The position numbers and the translations under genes are program-made. A stretch of DNA of 34,430 bases, from positions 1-34,430 of the forward strand of contig JAADHZ010000169.1 in the NCBI GenBank assembly GCA_013151575.1, read 5' to 3'. Origin of the DNA: Gammaproteobacteria bacterium. GTDB taxonomy: Bacteria > Pseudomonadota > Gammaproteobacteria > SZUA-152. Shown one piece after another: positions 2,599 through 33,171 of this stretch. How positions within the stretch are numbered: position 1 is the first letter of the stretch; the number at the start of each line of letters is the position of its first letter. The notes under the pieces are model-generated. The model worked only from the letters and a program-made list of their open reading frames with translations. It was not told where the DNA came from and did no database searches.

Positions 2599-3939
2599 TC
2601 AGCTTTTTGTCAACAGGGCGATGGATTCAACGTGGCCGGTGTGGGGAAACATGTCCATGACGCCAGCACTCACCAACGTATAACCCTGCTGATCCACGAG
2701 CGTGCCAATGTCGCGCGCCAGCGTGGCCGGGTCGCAGGACACATAAACGATGCGGGAAGCATGTGGCTTGGGCAGGTTTTTCACCACCATCGGCGCACCA
2801 CTGCGCGGCGGGTCCAGCAACAGCTTGTTGAAGCCTTCGCGATACCAGGGCTCGGCGGGCAGGTCGCCGTTGAGGTCGGCAGCATGGAATGCCACATTGT
2901 CGATGCCGTTGCGCTGGGCGTTTTCCCGTGCACGAGCCACCAGTCCGGCGTCGCCCTCCACGCCCACCACGGCACCAGCCCGCCGCGCCAGTGGCAGGGA
3001 AAAATTGCCGAGGCCGCAAAATAGGTCCAGCACCCGGTCCTCCGGCTGCGGGTCTAGCAACTCGATGGTACGAGCGATCATCTGCCGATTCAGCTCGGCG
3101 TTGACCTGGGTGAAATCGGTGGGCCGAAATTGCATGTCCACGTCATGCGCCGGGAGTCGATATCCGAGCTGAGTATTGGCGCTTTCTTCACCCTCGGGCC
3201 ACAGGCGTGACACGGTTTTGGGGCCACCGGACTGGAGGAAAATAATCAATTGATGCTCTTGGCCAAAGGCGCGCAGCCGTTCGAGGTCAGCCTCGCTCAG
3301 CTCGGCGAGATGCCGGAACACCAGGGCTACGTTGTCATCACCCACGGCCACTTCAATCTGGGGAATTTTATCGCGGATACTGAGTGCGCCGATCAATGCT
3401 GCCAGCTCACCGATGCGCTCACCCACGCTAGGATGCAATACTTCACAGCGTTTGATATCCGCCAGAAACGAGCTGCTGCGCTCACGAAAGCCCACCCGCA
3501 CCACTTGCTCCCGGCGCATGAAGGCGACACCGAGCCGAGCCTTGCGGCGATAACCCCAGGCAGGCCCTGTCAACGGCGGCAACACCGTCTGCGGTTGTAC
3601 GTGGCCAATGTTTTTCAGGTTATCCAGCAGACGTTGCTGCTTGTGAAGAATCTGCTGCTCGGGGGACAGGTGTTGCAGGCTGCAACCACCGCACACACCA
3701 AAATGGGCGCAACGCGGTTCAATGCGCAGCGGCGAAGGCTTGATGACCTCCACCACGTCCCCTTCGTCGAACTTGCTGCGGGTGCGGCAGTAACGAAACA
3801 CCACCTCCTCTTCCGGGAGTGCGCGATGCACGAACACCACTTTGCCAGCCACGTGACAAATGCCACGGCCGTCGTGGGATAGGGATTCGATCACCGCTTG
3901 GCGCGGTTCGGGGCGTTTTTTGTTACGACGTCGAGACAT
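2599..3939 (-). CDS. rlmD: 23S rRNA (uracil-1939-C5)-methyltransferase RlmD/RumA
   Basis: RlmD uses S-adenosylmethionine to make m5U1939 in 23S rRNA. The 446-residue protein has an N-terminal TRAM domain (about 12-66, with SHDGRGICHVAGKVVFV), the four iron-sulphur cysteines Cys77, Cys83, Cys86 (RCAHFGVCGGC) and Cys165, the SAM-binding LDLFCGLGNFSLPLA (about 304-318), the LLLDPPR motif near 373, and the catalytic cysteine Cys402 in SCDPATLARD. All key residues of the TrmA/RumA family are present. It lies 84 bases downstream of cysM on the same strand, an arrangement common in Pseudomonas-like gammaproteobacteria, where relA often follows; here ispG and a REP remnant follow instead. Confidence 0.96.
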   Translation of the reverse strand: MSRRRNKKRPEPRQAVIESLSHDGRGICHVAGKVVFVHRALPEEEVVFRYCRTRSKFDEGDVVEVIKPSPLRIEPRCAHFGVCGGCSLQHLSPEQQILHKQQRLLDNLKNIGHVQPQTVLPPLTGPAWGYRRKARLGVAFMRREQVVRVGFRERSSSFLADIKRCEVLHPSVGERIGELAALIGALSIRDKIPQIEVAVGDDNVALVFRHLAELSEADLERLRAFGQEHQLIIFLQSGGPKTVSRLWPEGEESANTQLGYRLPAHDVDMQFRPTDFTQVNAELNRQMIARTIELLDPQPEDRVLDLFCGLGNFSLPLARRAGAVVGVEGDAGLVARARENAQRNGIDNVAFHAADLNGDLPAEPWYREGFNKLLLDPPRSGAPMVVKNLPKPHASRIVYVSCDPATLARDIGTLVDQQGYTLVSAGVMDMFPHTGHVESIALLTKS

Positions 3940-4023: not shown

Positions 4024-4914
4024 TCATGCCGGAAACACGTTGGTAGACAGGTAACGGTCACCCCGGTCGCAAATAATGACTACGATCACGGCGTTTTCCA
4101 CCTGTGCCGACAGTGCCAGAGCAGCAGCCACGGCGCCACCCGACGACACGCCGGCGAAAATGCCTTCCTGCGAGGCTAAAGCGCGGGTGGTGTGCTCCGC
4201 GTCTTCCTGAGTCACATCAAGAATGCGATCCACCCGCTCAGCTTCGTAAATTTTCGGCAGGTAGGCCTCGGGCCAGCGGCGGATACCGGGAATACTCGCC
4301 CCTTCGCTGGGCTGCACACCCACAATTTGGATCTCGGAATTGTGCTCCTTGAAAAACCGCGAGCACCCCATAATGGTGCCGGTGGTGCCCATGGCGCTGA
4401 CGAAGTGGGTGATGCGATTGTCCGTGTCCCGTAGGATCTCCCGCGCGGTGGCCTCGTAGTGGGCCTGTGGGTTGTCGGGGTTGGCGAACTGATCCAGCAC
4501 CCGCCCCTGGCCGTCCTTTTGCATCTGTAGCGCCAGATCGCGGGCACCTTCCATGCCCAGCTCCTTCGACACCAGCACGATATCTGCACCGTAAGCCTTC
4601 ATGGCCCCGCGACGTTCCACGCTCATGTGCTCCGGCATAATCAAGGTCATACGATACCCCTTGATGGCTGCTGCCATGGCCAGGGCAATACCGGTGTTGC
4701 CGCTAGTCGCCTCGATGAGCCGGTCCCCGGGTTTCAGCTCCCCTCTCTCCTCGGCATGCTGGATCATGCTCATGGCCGGACGATCCTTCACCGAACCGGC
4801 GGGGTTGTTGCCCTCCAGTTTGGCCAGCAAGGTATTGCTGGTTTCGCCGGGCAAGCGCTGTAGGCGCACCAGCGGGGTGTTACCGATAAAGGACTCAATG
4901 GTGGGGAAGCTCAT
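4024..4914 (-). CDS. cysM: Cysteine synthase B (O-acetylserine sulfhydrylase, PLP enzyme)
   Basis: CysM makes cysteine, or S-sulfocysteine from thiosulfate, from O-acetylserine. The 296-residue protein carries the PLP lysine Lys43 in NNPAGSVKDRPA and the substrate loop TSGNTG (70-75). The C-terminal phosphate-binding glycine and serine stretch is FAGVSSGGAVAA. The short length and the SFPTIESFIGNTPLVRLQR start are typical of the CysM rather than the CysK branch. The ATG at 4914 is preceded by GGAAACCCC. rlmD follows on the same strand. A possible promoter (TTGAAG, 18 bases, CATTAT) lies upstream, in the gap shared with the divergent TonB operon. Confidence 0.95.
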   Translation of the reverse strand: MSFPTIESFIGNTPLVRLQRLPGETSNTLLAKLEGNNPAGSVKDRPAMSMIQHAEERGELKPGDRLIEATSGNTGIALAMAAAIKGYRMTLIMPEHMSVERRGAMKAYGADIVLVSKELGMEGARDLALQMQKDGQGRVLDQFANPDNPQAHYEATAREILRDTDNRITHFVSAMGTTGTIMGCSRFFKEHNSEIQIVGVQPSEGASIPGIRRWPEAYLPKIYEAERVDRILDVTQEDAEHTTRALASQEGIFAGVSSGGAVAAALALSAQVENAVIVVIICDRGDRYLSTNVFPA

Positions 4915-5133: not shown

Positions 5134-7152
5134 ATGAATACGTCACGTCACCGTTTTGCATTTTTTACCGCGCTTTTTTTAGCGCCCGTGTTTTCAGTCA
5201 CGGTGCTGGCCGACACCGTTCAGCTCCCGGAGCTTCCAAGCTTCACGGACGACGATTTTTTATCCGGCATTCCCGTCGTGCTCACCGCCACCCGCCTGGC
5301 CCAGCCATTGAGCGAAGCTCCCGCCGCCATGACCGTCATTGACAGGGAAATGATCAACGCCTCCGGGGCACGGGACGTAGCCCATCTGTTTCGGCTGGTG
5401 CCGGGCTTCATGGTAAGCCAAGACAATGGACACATGCCCATTGTCGCTTACCACGGGCTGACCTCAGAATACGTCAATCGATTGCAGGTTTTGGTGGACG
5501 GCCGCTCGGTGTATTCACCGCTGTTCGGCGGGGCGGACTGGAGCAACCTGCCGCTGGTGCTTGACGATATCGAACGCATCGAAGTCATCCGTGGCCCCAA
5601 TGCCGCCAGCTACGGCAGCAACTCTTTTTTGAGCGTCATCAACATCATCACCCGACATGCCTCCGAAACCACAGGGCAATTTTTTCGCGCCACACGCGGC
5701 AGCAACGGCATCAAAAATGGCGTTTATCGCTTCGGTGATTCCACGCAAAACGCCGACTACCGGCTCACCCTGGCCTCGCATGGAGATAGTGGCCTAGTGA
5801 CCCGCGCCGACGACCATCGCATCCATAATCTGCGGGGACGTGCCGATATGCAGCTCAGCGAGCGCGATACCCTGCTGCTGCAAACCGGCATCAGCAAAGG
5901 CATGCGGGAAATAGACTCAATGTCCCTGAACGCCGTGGAAGACCGAAAAATTCTCATGCAGTTTGAACAAGTACGCTGGCAACATCAGATAGGCGCCAAC
6001 GACGCATTAAGTGTGCAATTTTTCCACACACTTGAAGACACCGACGAAGTTTTCGACGTTACGATTCAGCCCCCGTTGGGGCGCATCATTCGGAATGCCT
6101 CCAACCGCGCCGAACGGTTTGACCTTGAAGTGCAACACACCCTGCAATTATCACCGCAGGCGCGTCTGGTATGGGGTGGTGGTCTGCGCCAGGATTCCGC
6201 CCAGGGACCACAAATTTTCAACACCAACCCCGCCACAATGCAAACGGGAAATAACCGCAAATTTTACAATAAGGTTTTCCGTAGTTTCGCCAATATCGAA
6301 ACTCGCCTGCGCACTGACCTCACCCTGAACACCGGGGCCATGCTGGAAAAATCCACCCTGGCCGCCACGGCGTTATCCCCCCGTATCGGTGCAAATTATT
6401 TCATCACCCCGCAGCAATCCGTGCGCTTGATATACAGCCAAGCCACGCGTACCCCCAGCCTCAATGAGGCCCGATCAAACTATCGGATACCGGTTGAAGG
6501 CCCCCCCAGCTTCATCACCACCGTGTGGGTCGGCAACCCACAACTGAAGGTAGAAAAAATCACATCTTATGAACTGGGATACCATGCCAATCTCAACCGG
6601 CAACGCACCGTGTTGGACATAAAGGCATACCATGAACATCTGCGCGACCTCATCACCGTGGAAGGCAACAGCGTATCCGACCCCAGTGACCTTTTGGATC
6701 GCAAACATTTTGTGTACGACAATTTAACCGATGCCGACATCACCGGCCTGGAAATTGCGCTGGATATTCGGCCCACCCGACATACTCGCTTCGTGCTTTC
6801 CCATTCCAGCAACAAGATCAAAAGCACCAACCCCAATATCAGCTCTGCCAAGCTGGCGCAATCTTCACCGAAACACATCACATCCCTGCTGGCCATTGCA
6901 CGCCTGCCCGGAGGCTTCAACAGCAGCATCAGTTATTACAGCGTCAGCAAAAGCAATGGCCTGGGTTCAGGCGATGGAGTAAAACGATATAAAACCGCAA
7001 ATTTACGACTGGCGTACCCCTTCACCTGGGGTAGCGCACGCGGCGAAATTTCCTGGGTGTATGAAAACCTCGGCGGCGACTATAAGAACTGGCGCCAAGA
7101 CAACACCATGACCGCACAGCATTACGTGAGCATTTTTCTGTACTTGGATTAG
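5134..7152 (+). CDS. TonB-dependent outer-membrane receptor (BtuB/FepA-like fold)
   Basis: A 673-residue outer-membrane protein. Residues 1-26 (MNTSRHRF, a hydrophobic stretch, then VTVLA) form a signal peptide. A plug domain follows (about 45-170) with VVLTATRLAQPLSEAPAAMT, SGARDVAHLFRLVPGF, QVLVDGRSVYSPLFGG and DIERIEVIRGPNAASYGSNS, all classic plug motifs. The rest is alternating barrel strands, including SPRIGANYFITPQQSVRLIY and VEKITSYELGYH. I chose the ATG at 5134 because it begins the signal peptide; the longer reading frame from a TTG at 5080 adds 18 implausible residues. The substrate is unknown: no riboswitch or Fur box was recognised. The protein ends in LYLD rather than the usual aromatic residue. 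It begins an operon with a binding protein 17 bases downstream and a hybrid kinase. Confidence 0.9.
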   Translation: MNTSRHRFAFFTALFLAPVFSVTVLADTVQLPELPSFTDDDFLSGIPVVLTATRLAQPLSEAPAAMTVIDREMINASGARDVAHLFRLVPGFMVSQDNGHMPIVAYHGLTSEYVNRLQVLVDGRSVYSPLFGGADWSNLPLVLDDIERIEVIRGPNAASYGSNSFLSVINIITRHASETTGQFFRATRGSNGIKNGVYRFGDSTQNADYRLTLASHGDSGLVTRADDHRIHNLRGRADMQLSERDTLLLQTGISKGMREIDSMSLNAVEDRKILMQFEQVRWQHQIGANDALSVQFFHTLEDTDEVFDVTIQPPLGRIIRNASNRAERFDLEVQHTLQLSPQARLVWGGGLRQDSAQGPQIFNTNPATMQTGNNRKFYNKVFRSFANIETRLRTDLTLNTGAMLEKSTLAATALSPRIGANYFITPQQSVRLIYSQATRTPSLNEARSNYRIPVEGPPSFITTVWVGNPQLKVEKITSYELGYHANLNRQRTVLDIKAYHEHLRDLITVEGNSVSDPSDLLDRKHFVYDNLTDADITGLEIALDIRPTRHTRFVLSHSSNKIKSTNPNISSAKLAQSSPKHITSLLAIARLPGGFNSSISYYSVSKSNGLGSGDGVKRYKTANLRLAYPFTWGSARGEISWVYENLGGDYKNWRQDNTMTAQHYVSIFLYLD

Positions 7153-7169
7153 CAAAAATTCCCGCAAAT

Positions 7170-8171
7170 ATGCCACTCCGACAAAACACAGCACATATCG
7201 ACACAGGAAAATTCCCCTGGATTTTTTTTGTCGCGTTATTCTGTTTGATATTTTTCAACCCGGCGAGCCAAGCCGACAGTTTTCGTATTACTCTCATTAG
7301 CAGTGGAAAAACCGATATTTACCAACAGCTCGTAAAAGGCATAATGGAAACCGTTCACGCACAGGTTTCACAACCCGTGGACTTCAACACAATATTAATG
7401 AAAGGTAAGCCTCCGCAGGTGGACCTAAAACCACAAATACATGCTGCTGACTTGGTCGTCACCATTGGACAGCAGGCAACTCACACAACCCTGAGCACAA
7501 AACCGAAGGCGCCGGTATTAGCAACCTTAATTCCCGAATACAGTTATGAAACGCTACTGGAAACACTCAAAAAACGAAGTCCACAACATATAAATAGCAG
7601 CGCTATTTTTATCACCCCACCACCTTCAGCCTATATTTTACTGGCCAAAATATTATTGGGTGAAAAACAACGCATTGGCATACTGGCCAGCGAGGCTAGT
7701 ATTGGCGACGCAAAAAAAATCAAAAAAATCGCACAAACTCTGGGCATTGGTTTATGGCTGGAAACAGCAAATCCCTCCGACAACCTGATTCAAAAACTCA
7801 CCCAGACCCTGGATAATAGCGATGCTCTGCTCGCATTACCTGACCCCTTTATTTTTAATCGCAAAACAGCGAAAAATATATTACTCACTACCTATCGACA
7901 CCGGGCACCGGTTATTGCCTTTTCCGCTTCTTATGTAAAAGCAGGCGCCATGGCTGCCGTGCACTCTTCCCCCGCACTGATTGCCCGCCAAACAGGTGAA
8001 ACAATAGCCGGGATAATCCAGTCCTCCGACAAAACCTTACCTGCACCCATGCACGCGAAATACATACTGGTGAGCATTAATGAAAATGTCGCCAGATCAC
8101 TGGGCGTCACCTACAGCAGCATTGGACAAGTACAACAGGAGCTACATCGACAAATGAGGTCTGCACCATGA
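7170..8171 (+). CDS. Periplasmic ABC-type substrate-binding protein without transporter partners (ABC_sub_bind-like)
   Basis: A 333-residue exported protein. An N-terminal hydrophobic segment (FPWIFFVALFCLIFFNPASQ) precedes a likely cleavage site after SQA; no lipobox is seen. The mature part resembles the ABC_sub_bind (TrpX-like, PF04392) fold: a first lobe with ADLVVTIGQQATHTT and PVLATLIPEYSYETL, a second lobe with QRIGILASEASIGDAKKIKK and DALLALPDPFIFNRKTAKNI, and the closing ILVSINENVARSLGV typical of the family. No permease or ATPase gene is next to it. The stop overlaps the start of the kinase gene by four bases (ATGA), which implies translational coupling. A sensing role, handing a ligand signal to the kinase, is therefore more likely than uptake, but this is inferred. 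Base composition is more AT-rich than in the receptor gene. Confidence 0.75.
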   Translation: MPLRQNTAHIDTGKFPWIFFVALFCLIFFNPASQADSFRITLISSGKTDIYQQLVKGIMETVHAQVSQPVDFNTILMKGKPPQVDLKPQIHAADLVVTIGQQATHTTLSTKPKAPVLATLIPEYSYETLLETLKKRSPQHINSSAIFITPPPSAYILLAKILLGEKQRIGILASEASIGDAKKIKKIAQTLGIGLWLETANPSDNLIQKLTQTLDNSDALLALPDPFIFNRKTAKNILLTTYRHRAPVIAFSASYVKAGAMAAVHSSPALIARQTGETIAGIIQSSDKTLPAPMHAKYILVSINENVARSLGVTYSSIGQVQQELHRQMRSAP

Positions 8172-10915
8172 CCCAGTTCGGCATTAGAGCACGCGTGCTA
8201 TTACTGGCGATTTTTCCAACATCGTTGGTATCAGTGATTTTTTTCTTGGTGTTTATTAACAAACAACTGGAGGATATCGACCAAAATATAACTATAAAAG
8301 GCAATTCTGTATCCCGCTACCTGGCTTCGGCAAGTGAATACGGTATTTTTTCCGGCAACATGAGCTTATTAACCCCATTGGCGGAATCCGCCTTACTGGA
8401 ACCGGATGTGGTGTCTGTCACAGTCACCAACCATTTAGGCACCCCGCTGATTCAGCTTCCCGAGAAAAATAACATTGGTAACCCACCGACCACAAACAAC
8501 CGCGTATTCAGCAAACCCGTCATACAAAAAATCGTCGATATCAACGACTTCGCCGAACCGGATGAATCACTACCTGATATTCTGGGCTGGGTGGTTGTGG
8601 AAATTTCCAACGAAATCGCACAGACCAGAAAACAGCAGGCAATTTTCAATTCACTGTTCATTGCCACCGGCATCCTGTCGCTCAGCATTATCATCGCACT
8701 GCGCATCAGCCGACGAGTCACCACCCCCATCACATCTCTGACACAGGCCGTCCGCGAAATTGAGGCGGGAAACTACGACGTATCGGTACAAACGCAAGCC
8801 ACCGGCGAGCTACTGGAGTTGGAGAAAGGCATCCACACCATGATTCGCTCACTAAAAGCCGCACAGTTAGATTCCTTTTCCAAAATTGAAAAAACCACCC
8901 TTGGACTCAGAGAATCACTGAAAGTAGTGGAAAGACAGAATGAAGAATTGCGTATTGCACGACAAGAAGCACTCTCTGCCAGTGAGGCGAAATCAGCTTT
9001 TTTAGCCAATATCAGCCACGAAATACGCACCCCTATGAACGGTATTTTGGGTTTTATAAAATTACTAAAGAAATCCAACCCAACGGCAGAACAACTGGAC
9101 TATCTGGACACCATTGATAAATCTGCAGACAATTTACTGAAACTCATCAATGATGTTTTGGATCTGTCAAAAATTGAGGCGGGAAAACTTTCACTTCATG
9201 GCAGGCCATTTGATTTATACGCCTGTGTTGAGGATGTGTTGTTACTTTTGGCCCCTGGCGTTTATGAAAAAAACCTGGAAATCACTTCACTTTTTTATGA
9301 TGACACACCAAGGTACACCATTGGCGCGGAAGACCGAATTCGTCAAATTTTGATCAATCTGGTTGGGAATGCAATAAAATTTTCCTCGCGCGGTGTCATC
9401 GTGGTACGCGCCATGCTGGAATCCCGGCATAACGACCGGGTATTGATCAAAATTTCAGTCAGCGACCAGGGTATCGGAATCCCTGAAAACAGCCAAAAAC
9501 AGTTATTCCATTCATTCACACAACTGGATAATTCCAGCACCCGACGGCATGAAGGCGCAGGCCTTGGCCTGGCGATTTCCAAATCCCTTGCCGAGGCAAT
9601 GCAGGGGGATATTGGCGTTGAAAGCATACCGGATGAAGGATCGACTTTCTGGTTCAGCTTCGAGTGCCTGTTAACAAAAACCGATCAAACGCTGAAAAAC
9701 GAAGCAATGCGTTTTCCCCCGTTAAATGTATTTGTGTATGACCGTTATGAAGCGTGTCGGCTTTCGGTATGCCACCAACTGAAAAAATATGGGCTGAAAA
9801 CAGTGGAGTTCAAACATCTTGGAGAACTGTCCCAGGAAATCAAACAAGACGGAAACTGTAGCCTGTGTGTGATAGGGCTCAGCCGAGAAGAAACTCGCTC
9901 TGATGATGCCAGACGTATCCTGTCGCAAGTATCAGCCGCTGGCACTGTCACCGTTTTAGCCCTGGTGAACAGTGCGGACCCCGTTACTCTCACCCGAATC
10001 CGCGAGCAAGGCGCCAATGTTTGTCTGCCGAAGCCATACCGTACCCGGGAATTTGAAGATGCCATCGAAGACCTATTGGGCAAACCCCAGCCGGATGGCC
10101 TTTTGGTTCAACAGGATTTTTCTTCTACAGTGCACAATGCCTTGAATTCTACCGCATCTGTGCAACACCAACTAAGTCACGTTAGGGTGTTGATTGCGGA
10201 AGACAACTCCATCAATGCCAAATTGATACAAACCATTTTATTACAAGCCGGTGCAACCACGATGCTGGTACAAAATGGCCACGAGGCAGTTGAGCAGGTC
10301 TGCACAAATGTCTTTGACATTGTACTGATGGACATACACATGCCTGGAATGAATGGTGTCGATGCAACAAAAATCATTCGATCCAGAGCCCACCACGACA
10401 ACCACCGCAGAATTCCTATTTTAGGGCTTACCGCCAATGCGCTGGAGGAAGATCACCGGTTTTTTTTAAGCGCGGGAATGGACGACGTGCTCATCAAACC
10501 CATATCGGTGGACAAACTGCTGCGGGAGATAACCCATTGGTTGTCAGCTCCCTCCCACATTGGCAAAAAATCCCTCGCCACAACGGGATATCATCATGCG
10601 GAGCAAACGGAAGGCACCGTGCATACCGACCAACTGGGGGTGAGTCAGGAACTGGCTGACGCACTATTCGAGATGTTGACTGCGGAGCTACCCGCAGTGC
10701 TCGAACAATTACAGGCCGCCTTTGATGCACAAAATTTTGATTCCTTGCGCGAACAAATTCATCGTCTGTTGGGCGGCATCAGTTATTGCAATGTCGACAC
10801 ATTGCGTCGCAGCATCATCTGCTGCCAACAGAGTGTCAAAACCCGCTCACCGGATCTGGCCATGGACTTCCAGGCCATGCTGGATGAAATCAGAAAAATA
10901 CTTAAAATTCGTTGA
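8168..10915 (+). CDS. BarA/GacS-like hybrid sensor histidine kinase with receiver and Hpt domains
   Basis: A 915-residue inner-membrane kinase. The N-terminus (FGIRARVLLLAIFPTSLVSV, then ASASEYGIFSGN) resembles BarA/GacS: TM1 at about 10-30, a periplasmic sensor to about 160, TM2 at about 165-183 and a HAMP domain to about 237. The HisKA domain has phospho-acceptor His284 in ANISHEIRTPMNG. The ATPase domain has ILINLVGNAIKFS, DQGIGIP and EGAGLGLAIS. A degenerate receiver (about 515-637) lacks the acceptor Asp. A full receiver follows, with Asp722 in DIVLMDIHMPGMNG, and an Hpt domain with His865 in REQIHRLLGGISYC. This gives a complete His-Asp-His relay that should pass phosphate to a separate response regulator, as BarA does to UvrY. 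GAGG lies 8 bases upstream of the start. No such regulator is in the window. Coupling to the binding protein upstream suggests the ligand source. Confidence 0.9.
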   Translation: MTQFGIRARVLLLAIFPTSLVSVIFFLVFINKQLEDIDQNITIKGNSVSRYLASASEYGIFSGNMSLLTPLAESALLEPDVVSVTVTNHLGTPLIQLPEKNNIGNPPTTNNRVFSKPVIQKIVDINDFAEPDESLPDILGWVVVEISNEIAQTRKQQAIFNSLFIATGILSLSIIIALRISRRVTTPITSLTQAVREIEAGNYDVSVQTQATGELLELEKGIHTMIRSLKAAQLDSFSKIEKTTLGLRESLKVVERQNEELRIARQEALSASEAKSAFLANISHEIRTPMNGILGFIKLLKKSNPTAEQLDYLDTIDKSADNLLKLINDVLDLSKIEAGKLSLHGRPFDLYACVEDVLLLLAPGVYEKNLEITSLFYDDTPRYTIGAEDRIRQILINLVGNAIKFSSRGVIVVRAMLESRHNDRVLIKISVSDQGIGIPENSQKQLFHSFTQLDNSSTRRHEGAGLGLAISKSLAEAMQGDIGVESIPDEGSTFWFSFECLLTKTDQTLKNEAMRFPPLNVFVYDRYEACRLSVCHQLKKYGLKTVEFKHLGELSQEIKQDGNCSLCVIGLSREETRSDDARRILSQVSAAGTVTVLALVNSADPVTLTRIREQGANVCLPKPYRTREFEDAIEDLLGKPQPDGLLVQQDFSSTVHNALNSTASVQHQLSHVRVLIAEDNSINAKLIQTILLQAGATTMLVQNGHEAVEQVCTNVFDIVLMDIHMPGMNGVDATKIIRSRAHHDNHRRIPILGLTANALEEDHRFFLSAGMDDVLIKPISVDKLLREITHWLSAPSHIGKKSLATTGYHHAEQTEGTVHTDQLGVSQELADALFEMLTAELPAVLEQLQAAFDAQNFDSLREQIHRLLGGISYCNVDTLRRSIICCQQSVKTRSPDLAMDFQAMLDEIRKILKIR

Positions 10916-10928
10916 GCAGCCTACACCA

Positions 10929-11816
10929 CTACTTTTTTGGCGGCAGACAGTAGCGGTGAAGATAGTCAAGAAATTCGTCTTTCAACGCGGGATGTTTTAG
11001 CGCATATTCCACCGTCGCTGTGAGATAACCCAACTTGCTGCCACAATCAAAACGTCGGCCGTTGAACTGATAGGCTAATACAGACTCCTCTTTCAACAGA
11101 TCGGCAATGGCATCGGTCAACTGAATTTCTCCACCGGCACCGGCGCCAGTACTTTCCAGCAGTTCAAAAATCCGAGGTGTCAGAATATAACGCCCTACCA
11201 CCGCCAGGTTGGAAGGCGCATCAGCGGGCTTGGGTTTTTCAACGATTTGTTCCACCCGCCCAAAACGTCCATCACCTTTATTTGCCTTCACAATGCCGTA
11301 TTTGTCCGTTTCGTTGTGGTCGACCTCCTCCACACCCAACAGGCTGCATTGCTGCTGTTCGAACAAAGTGGTCATCTGCGCGAGACAACCACGCCCATCG
11401 TCATCAATGAGATCGTCGGCGAGAATAACGGCAAAAGGGTGATTACCAACGACGTTCTTTGCGCATAACACCGCATGCCCTAAGCCCAGAGCTTCGGGCT
11501 GACGAATATAAACACAGTTCACTCCTTTGGGCAGGATGTCATTCACAATGGCCAGTAACTCATCCTTGCCACGTTGCGCGAGCACCGTCTCTAATTCGAA
11601 ATTGCGGTCAAAATGATCCTCGATGGCACGTTTGCTGCTGCTGGTGACAAACACCATTTCGGTGACGCCGGCGGCAACAGCCTCCTCCACGGCATACTGG
11701 ATCAGAGGCTTATCCACCACCGGCAACATTTCTTTCGGGTTGGCCTTGGTCGCGGGCAAAAACCGGGTACCGAGCCCGGCGACGGGAAATACCGCTGTTC
11801 GAATATGTTGAGCCAT
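10929..11816 (-). CDS. galU: UTP-glucose-1-phosphate uridylyltransferase
   Basis: GalU makes UDP-glucose from UTP and glucose-1-phosphate, for envelope polysaccharides and osmoprotective glucans. The 295-residue protein begins with the nucleotide-binding [20 protein letters not shown] and the [17 protein letters not shown] motif, followed by [12 protein letters not shown] and [12 protein letters not shown], all standard for bacterial GalU. AGG lies 6 bases before the ATG at 11816. The gene stands between the pnp terminator and the convergent kinase gene, whose stop is only 13 bases from the galU stop, with no clear terminator in between. Confidence 0.95.
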
Positions 11817-21405: not shown

Positions 21406-23382
21406 TCAAGCCTCTCGACCACTGATAGCCGCCAGTCGATATACCACAAATTCGCGCTGTATCTGCATCAGATCACCAATTTGAACCACCCGGGATTCAC
21501 CACCAGTCTCGATTTTCACCGTCAGGCCAGAGGCCATGCGGTGACTGTGGTGCAGCAACAAACTCGGCTCCTCCCCATGAGAGAAACCATTGGAAGAGTC
21601 ACTCAACAGAATAGCTGGCAAGGCCATGTCATTCTGGCTGAGGAAGTCGCTTTGTACGGCCGCAGCCTGCGGCTGCTGGGAAATAATGCGCACAGTGATT
21701 TCAATTTCCTGCTCCCGGTCACGACACAGCCGCACCACGTAACCCAACAGGGGATGCTGCAATTGTTCGCGGGAATACGCGAAGGCCACCAGCTGGCCGA
21801 TAAACATCGCGGTGGTGAACTGGCTTTCGCGTGTTTTGATGTGAACACCGCCGTCATTGCGATCAAGCACAAACCATTGTCCCTCATCGGCGGACACCCG
21901 GCCGCTAGTGATCAGCGCCGATCGCCCCGCCAAGGTGTCGCGCAATTCGTTGTCTACCGCCAGTTCCGCCAGGGTGTCTTCATCTTCTTCCTGATTATCC
22001 GTCAGCAGTTTGAACACCGAGGCATAACCGTTGTACACATAAAGCACCTGCCGACCGACGATGTTATCGCGCACCCTGCTGCGGCGACGTCGACGCAGCT
22101 GGTCACACATGGAGCCCAACACCAGCATGCGGGCGAGATCCTGTTTGTCGGCGACCGCTTTCCCCCGCTGCCTGCTGCCCTTGCCCGCCTCGGCCTCACT
22201 GGCGCAATAGACATGAAACTGGCTCAATGAGTCCGCGTGTGCCGCCAATACCCGTTGAGCCAACGGTACGATATCGAGCTGTAAAGCAGGTGGGCCTTCC
22301 CGTGGCGCGAGTTCATTTTCGCCGGTCACCGGGGCTGGGCCAGGCTGCGGGCGACGCCAGTTGGCCAGGGCCTTTTCATCCTGCCGCTGGTAGTACGGCG
22401 GGCAATCCTGCTGGCAGTACACCACCAGCCGCCCGTCAGCCAGCGGGCCGCCATCGTCAGGCTCCAGCGACATATTCGCCAACACGGGATTGATTTGTGC
22501 ATCCACCACATGCAGCTCGCGGGATGACACCGTATTGGCGTCCATCAAGCCGAACAGCTGAATGGCCAGATAGGTTTGCTGCACACTGGTGGTGGGCGCG
22601 GCGCGGTGAGCCAAATCCCCCGGCATCCATTCCGCACGCAATTGCAGGCAACCCATGGCGGGCGCAACGGCATTAACGTCCTCCGTTTGCGCTAACGCAA
22701 AATAGATGGCGTTGCAGTCGCGCCAGGTCAGGGGCAGCAGTTTTTGGTAACGCATGGCGCGCAGGCGTTGTTCCATGCGGATCAGCTCCAGCGCCCGCAA
22801 CCCACAGCGTCGCAATCGACCACGCACGCGCAGGAATCGTGTTTCGGGCAGGGCGTAGTCCAGGCTCAATTGACGTTTGTAAGCGATGGCCAACTGGCGA
22901 CACACATGAATGGCCACCACCAGCCCCTCACGACGATCGTGAGATTCCGGCAGAGCTTGGGCCTTGTGCTGTTCGGAATAAATTTTGCGTAGCGCGGGGC
23001 AGGCATGCCGCTGCACCTGCTCACGCCAGCGAATGCGTTTGCGGGTCGGCAGGCGTTCTGTGTTGAGGCGTTTCAGATATTGCTCAATCTGACGCAACAA
23101 CTCGATGGGGTGGGAGGCCAGCGCCAGCCAATCTTCCTCCTCCGGCGCCGTCAGCGGCCCTTGCCTGGCGCTACGACGCTTTCCCTGCTGAATCAGTGGT
23201 AAATCCAGCAACAACGGGAGATGCCGAAGCTGCGCCGCCGGAACCTCACCCCGCAACCGTTGCTGCGCGAGGTCCAACACATAGGATAACTCCCCGGCAA
23301 CATCTCGCCCCAGGTCGATACCGGCTTCGCCACCACGCACCAGCCAATCACGCCAGCGAGGAGTATTCCCAGTCGTTGTCAT
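21406..23382 (-). CDS. Large protein with a PilZ-like C-terminal region (putative cyclic di-GMP-responsive factor)
   Basis: A 658-residue, probably soluble protein: no signal peptide or membrane segment is visible. The first 400 or so residues are helix-rich and basic (RTRKRIRWREQ-like segments, VRGRLRRCGLRALELIRMEQ) and match no domain I can name. The C-terminal part (about 499-575) reads QWFVLDRNDGGVHIKT, then FIGQLVAFAY and LLGYVVRLCRDREQEIEITV. This fits the pattern W-x-V-x-N/D-x-S-x-x-G ... GQLVA ... GVVRW seen in a PilZ-related family of beta- and gammaproteobacteria, although the usual Ser is Asp here. A RxxxR-like basic cluster (RRRRRSRVRDN) lies some 70 residues earlier. The ATG lies 6 bases after the parC stop, so the two are probably co-transcribed. 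Function is inferred only; a cyclic di-GMP link is plausible with the diguanylate cyclase at 32011. Confidence 0.55.
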   Translation of the reverse strand: MTTTGNTPRWRDWLVRGGEAGIDLGRDVAGELSYVLDLAQQRLRGEVPAAQLRHLPLLLDLPLIQQGKRRSARQGPLTAPEEEDWLALASHPIELLRQIEQYLKRLNTERLPTRKRIRWREQVQRHACPALRKIYSEQHKAQALPESHDRREGLVVAIHVCRQLAIAYKRQLSLDYALPETRFLRVRGRLRRCGLRALELIRMEQRLRAMRYQKLLPLTWRDCNAIYFALAQTEDVNAVAPAMGCLQLRAEWMPGDLAHRAAPTTSVQQTYLAIQLFGLMDANTVSSRELHVVDAQINPVLANMSLEPDDGGPLADGRLVVYCQQDCPPYYQRQDEKALANWRRPQPGPAPVTGENELAPREGPPALQLDIVPLAQRVLAAHADSLSQFHVYCASEAEAGKGSRQRGKAVADKQDLARMLVLGSMCDQLRRRRRSRVRDNIVGRQVLYVYNGYASVFKLLTDNQEEDEDTLAELAVDNELRDTLAGRSALITSGRVSADEGQWFVLDRNDGGVHIKTRESQFTTAMFIGQLVAFAYSREQLQHPLLGYVVRLCRDREQEIEITVRIISQQPQAAAVQSDFLSQNDMALPAILLSDSSNGFSHGEEPSLLLHHSHRMASGLTVKIETGGESRVVQIGDLMQIQREFVVYRLAAISGREA

Positions 23383-26481: not shown

Positions 26482-27035
26482 TTATTCGCCAAATCCTTCG
26501 GTTGGTTCGTTGAACTCGCCACCCCAATTCTCGCTGTAAATTCCCTCTCTGACATACCGGTGAAACGTGGAATATGGCCATGATTTTACCGTTGTCGTGT
26601 TGTCGTTAACCCATGCTTAACCGGATTGTAATGGATGTAATCTGCGTGTCGCTGAAAATCCGTTTCATCTCTGATTTGATGTTCCCAAAAACGACGTTGC
26701 CAAATAGCGCTTTCTCTGTGCCGTTGCTTTGAATTATTTAATTGCATATCGCACGAAAAAATAGGCTTTGTCTGTTTCGTATATCTGGCTTTTATCATTC
26801 CCCAGCGTTTGGAATAATCGGCATCGCCTTCCGGCAACGTCCACATGCAATGTAAATGATCTGGTAATAAAACCCAGGCATCAATGGTAAATGGATGTTG
26901 CTGTTTTACCTCTTCAATCACTTGTCGCAATATTTTCCGGCTTTCCGGTTGAACCAAAATCGGTTGACGTCGATGGGTGACTACGGTGAAAAAATACGTT
27001 GCACCCGTTGTTGTTGATCTGCGGTAATTTGGCAT
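26482..27035 (-). pseudogene. REP-associated tyrosine transposase (RAYT, Y1/HUH), frameshifted by an 8-bp duplication
   Basis: The open frame from 27035 to 26586 gives 149 residues. It has the Y1 transposase core: YFFTVVTHRRQPIL, WVLLPDHLHCMWTLPEGDAD with the His60-x-His62 metal pair, RRFWEHQIRDE, and the tyrosine motif ADYIHYNPVKHG (Tyr133 or Tyr136). It then ends early in LTTTRQR. The family's usual C-terminus is present in another frame just beyond: KSWPYSTFHRYVREGIYSEN, then a stop at 26484-26482. The cause is visible: GTTGTCGT is tandemly repeated at 26591-26598 and 26599-26606. Deleting one copy restores HGLTTVKSWPYSTFHRYV and a frame of about 181 residues, the usual size. REPs flank the gene on both sides. 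Whether the truncated protein is active is unknown; the catalytic motifs are intact. Confidence 0.9.
26591..26606. repeat. 8-bp tandem duplication inside the RAYT gene
   Basis: GTTGTCGT occurs twice without a gap. The extra 8 bases shift the reading frame of the transposase after His-Gly-Leu-Thr-Thr. Such duplications typically arise by slippage. Confidence 0.9.
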
Positions 27036-29458: not shown

Positions 29459-31975
29459 ATGGCAAAATCATCAGACACAGCACCATCCACCAGTAGCAGC
29501 AGCATCGGTTTCTGCGACTGGAGCGTGAGCCAAAAAATCGCCCTCGGGTTCGGTGGTTTGATTCTGCTCATGGCGGTCGGCATGGGCATCACTCTGTTGA
29601 ACCTCGACAACGTCAAGCGCACCGCCTCCTCCGCCCTCGAAGAACACCAGCCCGTCGCCAATTATTTTCAGCGCCTATCACAAAACCTAAATCAATCAAT
29701 TGCCTTGCTAAACGGTTATTTATTAACGGGTGAAGCAGAACGCAAGGCCAAGTTCAAACGAATTGCTGACGACATTTCCGACCGCCTGGAGGGTGCCAGA
29801 CAACAGGAAATTTTCCAAAAACTAGGGCTCGACAGCACCCTGCACACGTCCCAGGCTCTGCTCCGGCAATTTCGTGAATACGCGAAGGAATTGTTTGTGC
29901 TGCACGACAGCCATCAAAACAACCGTGGCCTACAATTGGCGGGACAAACACTGAACCCGCTGGCCATCCGCTTTCTGGGCGACATTAACATTCTGCTGGC
30001 CAGCGATGACGCTGACCCCGGCGACCCGAAAACCGCCCAAGCTTTGCTCATTTTACAAGAAATTCGTTACACCTGGGTGCGGATGATGGGGGCGCTTAAC
30101 CTTTATATTACAGCCCCAAACCAAGACGTTTTGATTAATTTCAATAACTTTAACGAACGCGTCAGCGCGCTAATGGAAAAATTGAACCAGCTGGATGTCG
30201 ACATTGGGTTCGGCGAAATAGAGGCAATGAACGAGGCTCGTACCCAGTACCTCAAAAAATTACCGGCCGTACTGGATATATTTAAAACCGACGAATGGCA
30301 CGCCGACACCCGCCTCATCAAAACCCGGGTGCAACCCGTCACGGACCAACTACAGGAAATTTTCGAAGATACTGCCGACGCGCTGCTTGACGACGCCTTT
30401 GACAGCAGCGAAGTGCTGACGAAATCCCTGAACCACATTCGTCTCTCAGCCTTCATCATCCTCGCACTGGGCCTGCTCACTGGCATCTTACTAGCGATCA
30501 TCATTTCCCGAGGCATTGTTTCCCCCATCCAACAACTGATGGCGGCCGCAGGCCAGGTGGCCAATGGCGACCTTAACGCCGAGGTGGAAGTCACCACCAA
30601 AAACGAAATCGGACAGCTGGGTTCATCCTTCAACACCATGGTTGATCGTCTGCGCGTGGCCGCCGCAAACGAGCAAAAAATGCTGGATGAACTGGAGACC
30701 CGCGTTCAAAACCGCACCCGGGACCTCAAGCAAAGCGAAACCAAAATTCGCGCCATTCTCGACAATATCGGCGAAGGCATTCTGGTGCTCAACGAAGATG
30801 GCCGCATCGAATCCATGAACCCGGCAGCAGAACAGATCTTCGCCATGAGGGAAAAAGAAGCCATTGGCATCAATAGTGCCCTGTTCATCGACGGCCATGG
30901 TTCGGTAGATTTCACCAGCTTTAGCCGCGTCGACACCTCATCAAACAATCCGGCCAAAATGGGCAAAGACCACCAGCCTGAGGAATATCGGGGAGTGCGG
31001 GCCGACGGCTCCACCTTCCCCATGGAATTCGTGGTATCCCATATGAACCTGGGCGAAAACCCCTTGCAGGTCTGCATCGTGCGAGACATCACCACCCGCA
31101 AACAGACCGAAGAAAAACTCTCCGATGCCCAGAGCCAGCTGGTGGACGCTGCCCACAAATCTGGCATGGCAGAAATGGCCACCGGCGTACTGCACAACAT
31201 CGGCAACATCCTCAACAGCGTCAACCTGGCCGGAGAAGAAATTGCCCGCATCACCAATAACAGTAAAATCACCAACTTCATCAAGGCCAACGAACTGCTG
31301 CAACAGCACAGTGAAAACATGGGAGAATTCCTGCTCAACGACGTTCGCGGCCAAAAACTACCGGGTTATTATCTGAAAATCGGCCAGGTGCTGGACGACG
31401 AAGTCGCCGCAGTACGCAAGGAAGTACGCTCGCTGATCGAAAAAACCACCATGATGAAAGAAGTCATCAGCACCCAGCAGTCCTACGCCCACTCCGGCTT
31501 CCACAGTGAAACCCTAGACGTAGAAGCACTGGTGGAAGACGCATTAAAAATCCAGGCCAGTTCGTTGCACAAATGGGGAGTCAAGCTGCACAAGCAACTT
31601 GCCGATACCCCAGCATGCACGGGGCAAAAATCCAAACTTTTACAGGTCATCACCAACCTTATTAAAAATGCCCAGGAAGCTATGCGAGATAACGACCACA
31701 CCAACAAACCCAAGGAATTGATCATCGAAACCGGCCGTCTCAATGAAAGCCAAGCTTTTGTCCGCGTGTGTGACAACGGTTGCGGCATTATCCAAGAACA
31801 GCTGTCGAAGATATTCAATCATGGCTTCACCACCAAGGAAGACGGTCACGGCTTCGGCCTGCACACCAGCGCCAACGCCATGACTGAAATGCACGGTTCA
31901 CTGATGGCGGAAAGCGATGGCAAGGAAAAAGGCGCCCGCTTTACCTTAACCATTCCCATTGACAAAGCGGCCTGA
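29459..31975 (+). CDS. Membrane sensor histidine kinase with HAMP and PAS domains
   Basis: An 838-residue kinase. TM1 (about 27-47, GLILLMAVGMGITLL) is followed by a long helical periplasmic sensor resembling chemoreceptor four-helix bundles, TM2 (about 331-352), and a HAMP domain with MAAAGQVANGDLNAEVEV and NEIGQLGSSFNTMVDRL. A coiled coil and a PAS domain follow (about 430-545, with GILVLNEDGRIESMNPAAEQ and CIVRDITTRKQTEEKL). The phospho-acceptor region is not the usual SHELRTP type but GMAEMATGVLHNIGNILNSV, with His579. The ATPase domain has QVITNLIKNAQEAM, VCDNGCGII and GHGFGLHTSAN. The receiver-GGDEF gene follows after 35 bases, so this is its likely partner. The N-terminus is long and serine-rich. 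The signal sensed is unknown. Confidence 0.9.
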   Translation: MAKSSDTAPSTSSSSIGFCDWSVSQKIALGFGGLILLMAVGMGITLLNLDNVKRTASSALEEHQPVANYFQRLSQNLNQSIALLNGYLLTGEAERKAKFKRIADDISDRLEGARQQEIFQKLGLDSTLHTSQALLRQFREYAKELFVLHDSHQNNRGLQLAGQTLNPLAIRFLGDINILLASDDADPGDPKTAQALLILQEIRYTWVRMMGALNLYITAPNQDVLINFNNFNERVSALMEKLNQLDVDIGFGEIEAMNEARTQYLKKLPAVLDIFKTDEWHADTRLIKTRVQPVTDQLQEIFEDTADALLDDAFDSSEVLTKSLNHIRLSAFIILALGLLTGILLAIIISRGIVSPIQQLMAAAGQVANGDLNAEVEVTTKNEIGQLGSSFNTMVDRLRVAAANEQKMLDELETRVQNRTRDLKQSETKIRAILDNIGEGILVLNEDGRIESMNPAAEQIFAMREKEAIGINSALFIDGHGSVDFTSFSRVDTSSNNPAKMGKDHQPEEYRGVRADGSTFPMEFVVSHMNLGENPLQVCIVRDITTRKQTEEKLSDAQSQLVDAAHKSGMAEMATGVLHNIGNILNSVNLAGEEIARITNNSKITNFIKANELLQQHSENMGEFLLNDVRGQKLPGYYLKIGQVLDDEVAAVRKEVRSLIEKTTMMKEVISTQQSYAHSGFHSETLDVEALVEDALKIQASSLHKWGVKLHKQLADTPACTGQKSKLLQVITNLIKNAQEAMRDNDHTNKPKELIIETGRLNESQAFVRVCDNGCGIIQEQLSKIFNHGFTTKEDGHGFGLHTSANAMTEMHGSLMAESDGKEKGARFTLTIPIDKAA

Positions 31976-32010
31976 CCCGCTACAAAACTGGAATTCACAG
32001 AGGCAACAAA

Positions 32011-33171
32011 ATGGAAGACATCACCCCGGACGCCCCCGCCACCGCACAGGAATACAACACACGCATCCTCATTGTTGATGACAACGAATCCATTCACGAG
32101 GATTTTCGCAAAGTACTGCTCCAGGAAAAAAACGAAAACCATGCGGCGCTGGATGAACTGGAAGCAGAGCTATTCGGTGAAGACTCCAGTGAAGCCGCTC
32201 TTCCATCCACAGAAAACGATCTCGAATATCGCGTGGACTCCGCCTTTCAAGGCGAGGAAGCACTGGAAATGGTGAACAAGGCCGAAGCCGAAGGACAGCC
32301 CTATTCCTTGATTTTCATGGACGTGCGCATGCCTCCAGGCTGGGACGGCATTGAAACCATCAGCCACATCTGGATCGACCATCCCTATCTGGAAATGGTG
32401 TTATGCACCGCCTACTCTGACTACACCTGGGATGACATCGTAGCCAAACTGGGCTGCACCGACAAACTGCTGTTTTTACGCAAACCTTTTGACGCCGTGG
32501 CCGTGCAGCAAATGGCGCTCAGCCTGGTAAAAAAATGGAATTTGGGGAATCAGGCAAGAAGCCATGTGAAAAATTTGGAGCGGGAGGTGCAGGAGCGCAC
32601 GGTACAATTGCGTGAGCTGTTACAGGAGCTGGAGGAAAAAAATGCCGTACTGGCCAGCAGCAATGATGAACTGAAGCACACCTCGTTACACGATTACCTG
32701 ACGAGTCTGCCTAACCGCATTTTGTTTCACGACCGGCTCGAACAGGCCATCAAGCTAGCCAGCCGGAATGACGGCCAATTCGCCGTGGCATTAATGGATC
32801 TCAATGGCTTCAAGGATATTAATGACCAACGCGGCCACCTCGCTGGTGACCAGGTATTAATCGCTGTGGCCAAACAACTGCAATCGGTATTGCGGGGGAG
32901 TGACACAGTGGCCCGATTGGGAGGAGACGAGTTTGCTTTCGTGCTGCCCACGGTTGCCAGCGAATCCCCGCAAACGGTAGCGCAAAAGCTGATTGATGCC
33001 GTGGCCCTTCCCATAACGCTGGACGACGGCACCATCACCGTTTCCAGTAGCATCGGCATCGCCTTGTACCCCGATCACGGCAAAAAAAATGACGGTCTGC
33101 TAGAAAAAGCGGACGCGGCCATGTACGAAGCCAAACGCAGTGGTGGCGGAATAAAGGTGCATAACACGTAA
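32011..33171 (+). CDS. Response regulator with diguanylate cyclase (REC-GGDEF)
   Basis: A 386-residue cytoplasmic protein. The receiver (about 16-165) has RILIVDDNESIHEDF, the acceptor Asp104 in IFMDVRMPPGWDG, and the conserved Lys in FLRKPFD. It carries an insert of about 35 residues between the first acidic pair and the acceptor (NENHAALDELEAELFGEDSS and following), longer than in ordinary receivers. A coiled-coil linker (about 185-225) joins it to a GGDEF domain with intact catalytic GGDEF at 304-308 and the inhibitory RxxD site (RGSD, 295-298) exactly five residues before it. It should make cyclic di-GMP from GTP with product inhibition. GAGG lies 8 bases before the ATG. It follows the kinase gene with a 35-base gap. 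Confidence 0.93.
   Translation: MEDITPDAPATAQEYNTRILIVDDNESIHEDFRKVLLQEKNENHAALDELEAELFGEDSSEAALPSTENDLEYRVDSAFQGEEALEMVNKAEAEGQPYSLIFMDVRMPPGWDGIETISHIWIDHPYLEMVLCTAYSDYTWDDIVAKLGCTDKLLFLRKPFDAVAVQQMALSLVKKWNLGNQARSHVKNLEREVQERTVQLRELLQELEEKNAVLASSNDELKHTSLHDYLTSLPNRILFHDRLEQAIKLASRNDGQFAVALMDLNGFKDINDQRGHLAGDQVLIAVAKQLQSVLRGSDTVARLGGDEFAFVLPTVASESPQTVAQKLIDAVALPITLDDGTITVSSSIGIALYPDHGKKNDGLLEKADAAMYEAKRSGGGIKVHNT

Follow-up and report, generated by a model that had tools for sequence, protein, structure and literature searches.

The window analysed here (the whole stretch of 34,430 nucleotides from an uncultured gammaproteobacterium) encodes a phosphorelay kinase of the BarA/GacS type together with an outer-membrane receptor and a periplasmic binding protein. 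We consider it probable that these two proteins form a dedicated envelope input module of the kinase, so that the whole chain would run from the receptor via the binding protein and the kinase to the regulator UvrY/GacA. The locus and its landmarks are as follows (positions are those of the window):

2599..3939, minus strand: rlmD, marker of the canonical barA place (relA-rlmD/barA in E. coli); NCBIfam RlmD, 600 bits; order as in E. coli K-12
4024..4914, minus strand: cysM, divergent neighbor and marker of the canonical barA place; NCBIfam CysM, 527 bits, above the cut-off; kept in relatives
5134..7152, plus strand: TonB-dependent outer-membrane receptor (plug and β-barrel) with a signal-like N-terminus; PF07715, 1.7e-20; PF00593, 1.4e-29
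7170..8171, plus strand: periplasmic binding protein of family PF04392 (3.8e-10), type I fold, without lipobox
8168..8171, plus strand: ATGA stop/start overlap of the binding-protein and kinase genes; kept in relatives
8168..10915, plus strand: tripartite hybrid kinase of the BarA/GacS type; Pfam domains; NCBIfam BarA, 606 bits over the full length
8264..8635, plus strand: sCache_4 (DUF2222) periplasmic sensor region of the kinase, residues about 33-156; PF09984, 2.3e-7
10929..11816, minus strand: galU-like nucleotidyltransferase, convergent and downstream, ending the operon; PF00483, 3.7e-32; same place in relatives

The three reading frames are intact, each with one stop; that of the receptor starts at ATG 5134, with the same frame already open from TTG 5080. 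The receptor gene is separated from the binding-protein gene by 17 bases (7153-7169), and the latter overlaps the kinase gene by the four bases ATGA, which confirmed the tight packing described in the initial annotation and amounts to an operon-like layout. The identities assigned there were equally borne out by Pfam. Receptor and binding protein each begin with a hydrophobic, signal-like stretch; in the kinase, sCache_4 is flanked by two membrane segments, near residues 6-32 and 157-182. The best NCBIfam match of the receptor was the TOL_0244 family (244 bits, below the cut-off of 645). Five ExbD-type matches were found in the genome, so energy for TonB is likely to be available. Downstream of the kinase, pnp and truB lie beyond the galU-like gene. 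The shared operon-like layout suggests that the kinase may receive its signal through the receptor and the binding protein. Elsewhere in the window, a HAMP-PAS histidine kinase is followed after 35 bases by a receiver-GGDEF protein (29459-33171), the two probably making up a pair of kinase and diguanylate cyclase; parC and the gene for a gyrB-type (parE-like) subunit have an IS200-like (Y1_Tnp) transposase gene (26586-27035) between them; and a 658-aa ORF directly downstream of parC (21406-23382) had no Pfam match at E 1e-5.

The kinase has the domain order sCache_4-HAMP-HisKA-HATPase-REC-Hpt (Pfam), the architecture of the BarA/GacS family, and the residues H284, N397, D722, and H865 (Hpt domain) for phospho-acceptance and the ATP site are kept. 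The best curated models were BarA (606 bits) and LetS (456 bits); the two matches spanned the full length but stayed under the respective cut-offs, which for the E. coli-type BarA equivalog (NF008318) is 890 bits. The gene adjoins rlmD-cysM, the canonical position of barA, which in E. coli K-12 is divergent from rlmD and relA. In its sensor, domain order, position at rlmD (and cysM) and the presence of UvrY/GacA in the genome, the kinase is like BarA, GacS, VarS, and LetS. On the basis of place, architecture, and tree, it is the BarA/GacS orthologue of this genome and not an extra sensor; a paralogous kinase added beside another BarA was ruled out by the finding of only one full-length match in the genome, at the canonical place. 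The part of the initial annotation that saw a BarA/GacS-type kinase as the partner is supported, but by synteny and tree this kinase is not an extra dedicated sensor. For the regulator receiving phosphate from the Hpt domain, which was to be identified, a likely partner can now be named: the single UvrY/SirA/GacA regulator of the genome, encoded on contig C64 (54% identity; 283.9 bits against NF007018, cut-off 280). Searches of this genome for the CsrB family (the only sRNA family covered) and for a strict GacA box were both negative.

The trio recurs in relatives of the same genus or family (G005, G010, G011, G013, G015, G017, G019, G020, G022, and G023) and in G044 of another family. Wherever the contig was long enough, these trios are adjoined by cysM, rlmD, or galU, except in G015, where none was recognized. 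The ATGA overlap was kept in all 11 of the 11 relatives compared, their binding proteins being 29-39% identical to that of the window. In other relatives, the kinase gene stands by itself beside cysM, namely, in four members of the same genus (G002, G007, G008, and G009) and three of the family (G014, G016, and G018); locus L212 was not counted among the lone kinases, as tblastn revealed a binding-protein gene there, although the tally made on the tree still lists this one locus as lone. The four congeners with a lone kinase group together (100/100) within the trio clade of the kinase tree, which points to loss of the module. Furthermore, the gap of 217 bp between cysM and barA in G008 still contains a fossil of a binding-protein motif (ALPDPFIFNR). 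As judged from the nested lone barA genes and this fossil, the receptor and the binding protein make up an input module that an orthologous BarA/GacS can lose.

How far the arrangement extends, which the initial annotation had left to a search across genomes, became apparent from a census of 369 gammaproteobacterial genomes (even draw; E up to 1e-25 for binding-protein homologues). Homologues were present in 73 of them, from which 76 loci were retrieved, 67 of these being well covered (at least 1.5 kb on both sides). A protein with a BarA-type sensor was encoded directly downstream of the binding protein in 62 of the 67 well-covered loci and a receptor upstream in 52; the full trio was present in 49, that is, far beyond the strain studied here. 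Two loci (L224 and L254) have the sensor gene adjacent to the binding protein in another order. Full trios occurred in 32 of the 44 families having the binding protein. Binding protein and sensor lie beside cysM/rlmD in 35 of the 76 loci, and the full trio does so in 28 loci from 19 families. Reciprocally, a binding-protein gene was located within 300 bp of 68 of 105 sensor genes, a count favored by a sensor profile built mainly from trio members. Across genomes, the two proteins co-occurred with an odds ratio of 39. Among the named carriers of the sensor-linked binding protein are Sedimenticola, Thiodiazotropha, Zoogloea, Porticoccus, and Methylophilaceae; Sedimenticola selenatireducens and S. 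hydrogenitrophicus are carriers in culture. Gene order maintained in 32 family groups, and the ATGA overlap in 11 of 11 relatives, indicate more than chance; a chance neighborhood or an oddity of a single strain was ruled out by the census.

The binding protein is the single PF04392 match in the genome of the window. Its predicted structure (pLDDT 92.8) is that of a type I binding protein, for which L-Trp-bound 3lft, CD0873, and 3lkv are the nearest solved folds; the PDB neighbors 3lft, 6hnj, and 3lkv scored at Z 22-25 in a list comprising only VIA-align re-scorings of Foldseek matches. XylFII-LytS structures were also among the fold neighbors. Some PF04392 proteins, TrpX for example, function together with a BPD_transp_2 permease. 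The binding protein could likewise serve an ABC permease whose gene lies elsewhere, in which case the operon would be a nutrient-uptake unit merely regulated by the kinase. One such unit, a classical PF02653 permease with its ATPase, adjoins a homologue, albeit a weak one and only in G246. However, while TrpX-type transport proteins (3lft, CD0873) are closest in fold (Z 22-25), they share only 16-18% identity with the window's protein, which scored 38.9 bits against a TrpX cut-off of 390; overall, it reached 39-40 bits with the PF04392 and TrpX models, compared with 359 bits for PF04392 in the transport-type protein of G246. As noted in the initial annotation, no permease or ATPase is encoded between or adjoining the three genes. 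The genome, a draft in 173 contigs at 85.6% completeness in which absences are provisional, likewise gave no PF02653 permease; 12 of 14 control genomes yielded one. Together with the near-universal linkage of the binding protein to sensor proteins, this makes a transport function very improbable, and it was set aside as the leading reading.

In the protein encoded downstream of the binding protein, sCache_4 and HAMP are constant (Pfam); the output is in some loci the BarA phosphorelay, in others a short hybrid kinase, and in others again GGDEF-EAL, which may include PAS. Judged from these neighborhoods, it is the sensor domain, and not any one output, to which the binding protein is linked. 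In 85 complete trios, the distances between binding proteins correlated with those between sensors when the kinase core was allowed for (partial rho 0.33; largest value of 500 permutations, 0.26), compared with 0.11 for binding protein and kinase core given the sensor. This co-variation lends modest support to binding protein and sensor being a functional pair.

Several loci of the census deserve mention in their own right. Trios off the cysM place (L200, L204, L216, L232, L247, L249, L252, L261, and L268) have an upstream gene for a NarL/UvrY-type regulator, as do L114, L118, L133, and L149-L151; these regulator-bearing trios look like self-contained four-gene copies of the system. On the conjugative plasmid p123 of Vibrio tubiashii (L274, 6813-9660), the gene for a distant binding-protein homologue, without Pfam match and annotated only as hypothetical, overlaps that for a short hybrid kinase. 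In the BarA-type kinase of L202 (5416-9048; 1210 aa), from a trio beside cysM/rlmD, HAMP and HisKA are separated by an inserted PAS domain. In the trio of L097/L214, the frame of the kinase is split into two overlapping ORFs, by either a frameshift or a sequencing error.

The sensor region belongs to DUF2222 (now sCache_4), the sensory module of BarA/GacS-type kinases (PMC4822843); the PDB neighbors of its predicted structure (pLDDT 89.3) include CitA and a LapD orthologue, in both cases the periplasmic domain. At the positions of L95, T98, and I130 of BarA, the window kinase has P, Q, and V, and an alignment with the 5o7j sequence revealed that the basic pocket of Pseudomonas GacS (R94, H97, H124, and H133) is not kept. 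The kinases of the module-less congeners have nearly the same pocket residues (P, Q, I or V). The notion that trio kinases lost their Cache pocket as the binding protein took over is thus unsupported. That such kinases persist at the same place with this pocket would also be expected if the kinase sensed a small ligand directly, the receptor and the binding protein serving to raise or buffer that ligand without contacting the kinase. E. coli BarA does sense acetate directly, by binding it and without such partners (PMC8639471), there being no receptor or binding-protein genes beside E. coli barA, unlike in the window; moreover, receptor and binding protein were lost together. In contrast, the binding protein stays with the sensor domain even where output and locus differ and co-varies more with it than with the kinase core, and pocket residues vary widely among trio kinases. 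We therefore regard direct sensing as unlikely.

In the preferred reading, with the binding protein acting on the kinase, the TonB-dependent receptor would bring a ligand into the periplasm, where the PF04392 protein would capture it without serving a permease. The binding protein would then switch the dimeric kinase by contacting its sCache_4 sensor, and phosphate would pass from H284 via D722 and H865 (Hpt) to UvrY/GacA, encoded elsewhere, which in turn would feed the Csr/Rsm pathway and its presumed targets. Counted against this explanation were the four congeners keeping the kinase without the module, from which it follows that the kinase can persist without it; also weighed were the acetate sensing of E. 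coli BarA and the lack of a CsrB family match or strict GacA box in this genome. That the module was lost while the kinase stayed would be easily understood if the module were only a modulator, for instance, a brake and not an activator, the ligand-free binding protein holding the kinase in one state (as in LuxP/LuxQ or TorT/TorS) until the ligand releases it. We hold this opposite sign to be hardly probable.

A binding protein acting on the sensor of a kinase, as proposed here, and not on a permease has its counterpart in LuxP-LuxQ, TorT-TorS, and XylFII-LytS, where the binding protein is periplasmic or extracellular. To our knowledge, the sensor and binding-protein families of these systems differ from those of the trio, and none has a TonB receptor in the operon. 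A close likeness in layout is VpvABC of Vibrio cholerae, in which a porin (VpvA), a periplasmic binding protein (VpvB), and a membrane diguanylate cyclase (VpvC) are encoded in one operon; VpvA was proposed to import an unknown signal that is sensed by VpvB and VpvC (PMC12456836). As the same logic had been put forward for VpvABC, the initial statement that no characterized system of this layout was known did not hold. The two differ in the first protein, called a porin in VpvABC and a TonB-dependent receptor in the window, and in the third, VpvC being a diguanylate cyclase of 430 aa and the window's protein a BarA/GacS phosphorelay kinase without GGDEF. The same paper, which does not mention histidine kinases, describes vpvAB as conserved in many Gamma- and Betaproteobacteria in which vpvC is missing (PMC12456836). 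VpvC is VC2454 (PMC12051071) and VarS, the BarA of V. cholerae, is VC2453 (PMC6351105), which, by locus tag only, places the V. cholerae module next to its BarA orthologue. The layout is thus already of a known kind.

We take VpvA and VpvB to be VC2456 and VC2455, consistent with the STRING partners named. A literature search, with most subscription papers outside its reach, found no description of the trio with GacS or BarA, and its attachment to BarA/GacS appears unreported. The review "The Evanescent GacS Signal", in its available part, names no TonB receptor or periplasmic partner protein and treats the GacS ligand explicitly as an open question (PMC7695008).

A module residing on BarA/GacS offers a testable route to this signal. 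If the binding protein feeds BarA/GacS in these lineages, ligand screens could be run on a purified soluble protein, a much simpler task than with a kinase in the membrane, and their outcome would have a bearing on how biofilm, secondary metabolism, and lifestyle switching are controlled. VpvABC, a c-di-GMP module, would also be connected with BarA/GacS, the two representing different outputs behind the same type of input module. More tentatively, and as a possibility we would not yet favor, the global regulator BarA/GacS may be a four-part receptor system across much of the Gammaproteobacteria, with a TonB-dependent receptor and a dedicated binding protein handing the kinase an external molecule, possibly derived from a community or host. 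On this view, BarA of E. coli and GacS of Pseudomonas, which stand alone, would have been reduced by loss of the input module, and VpvABC would have branched off with its output replaced.
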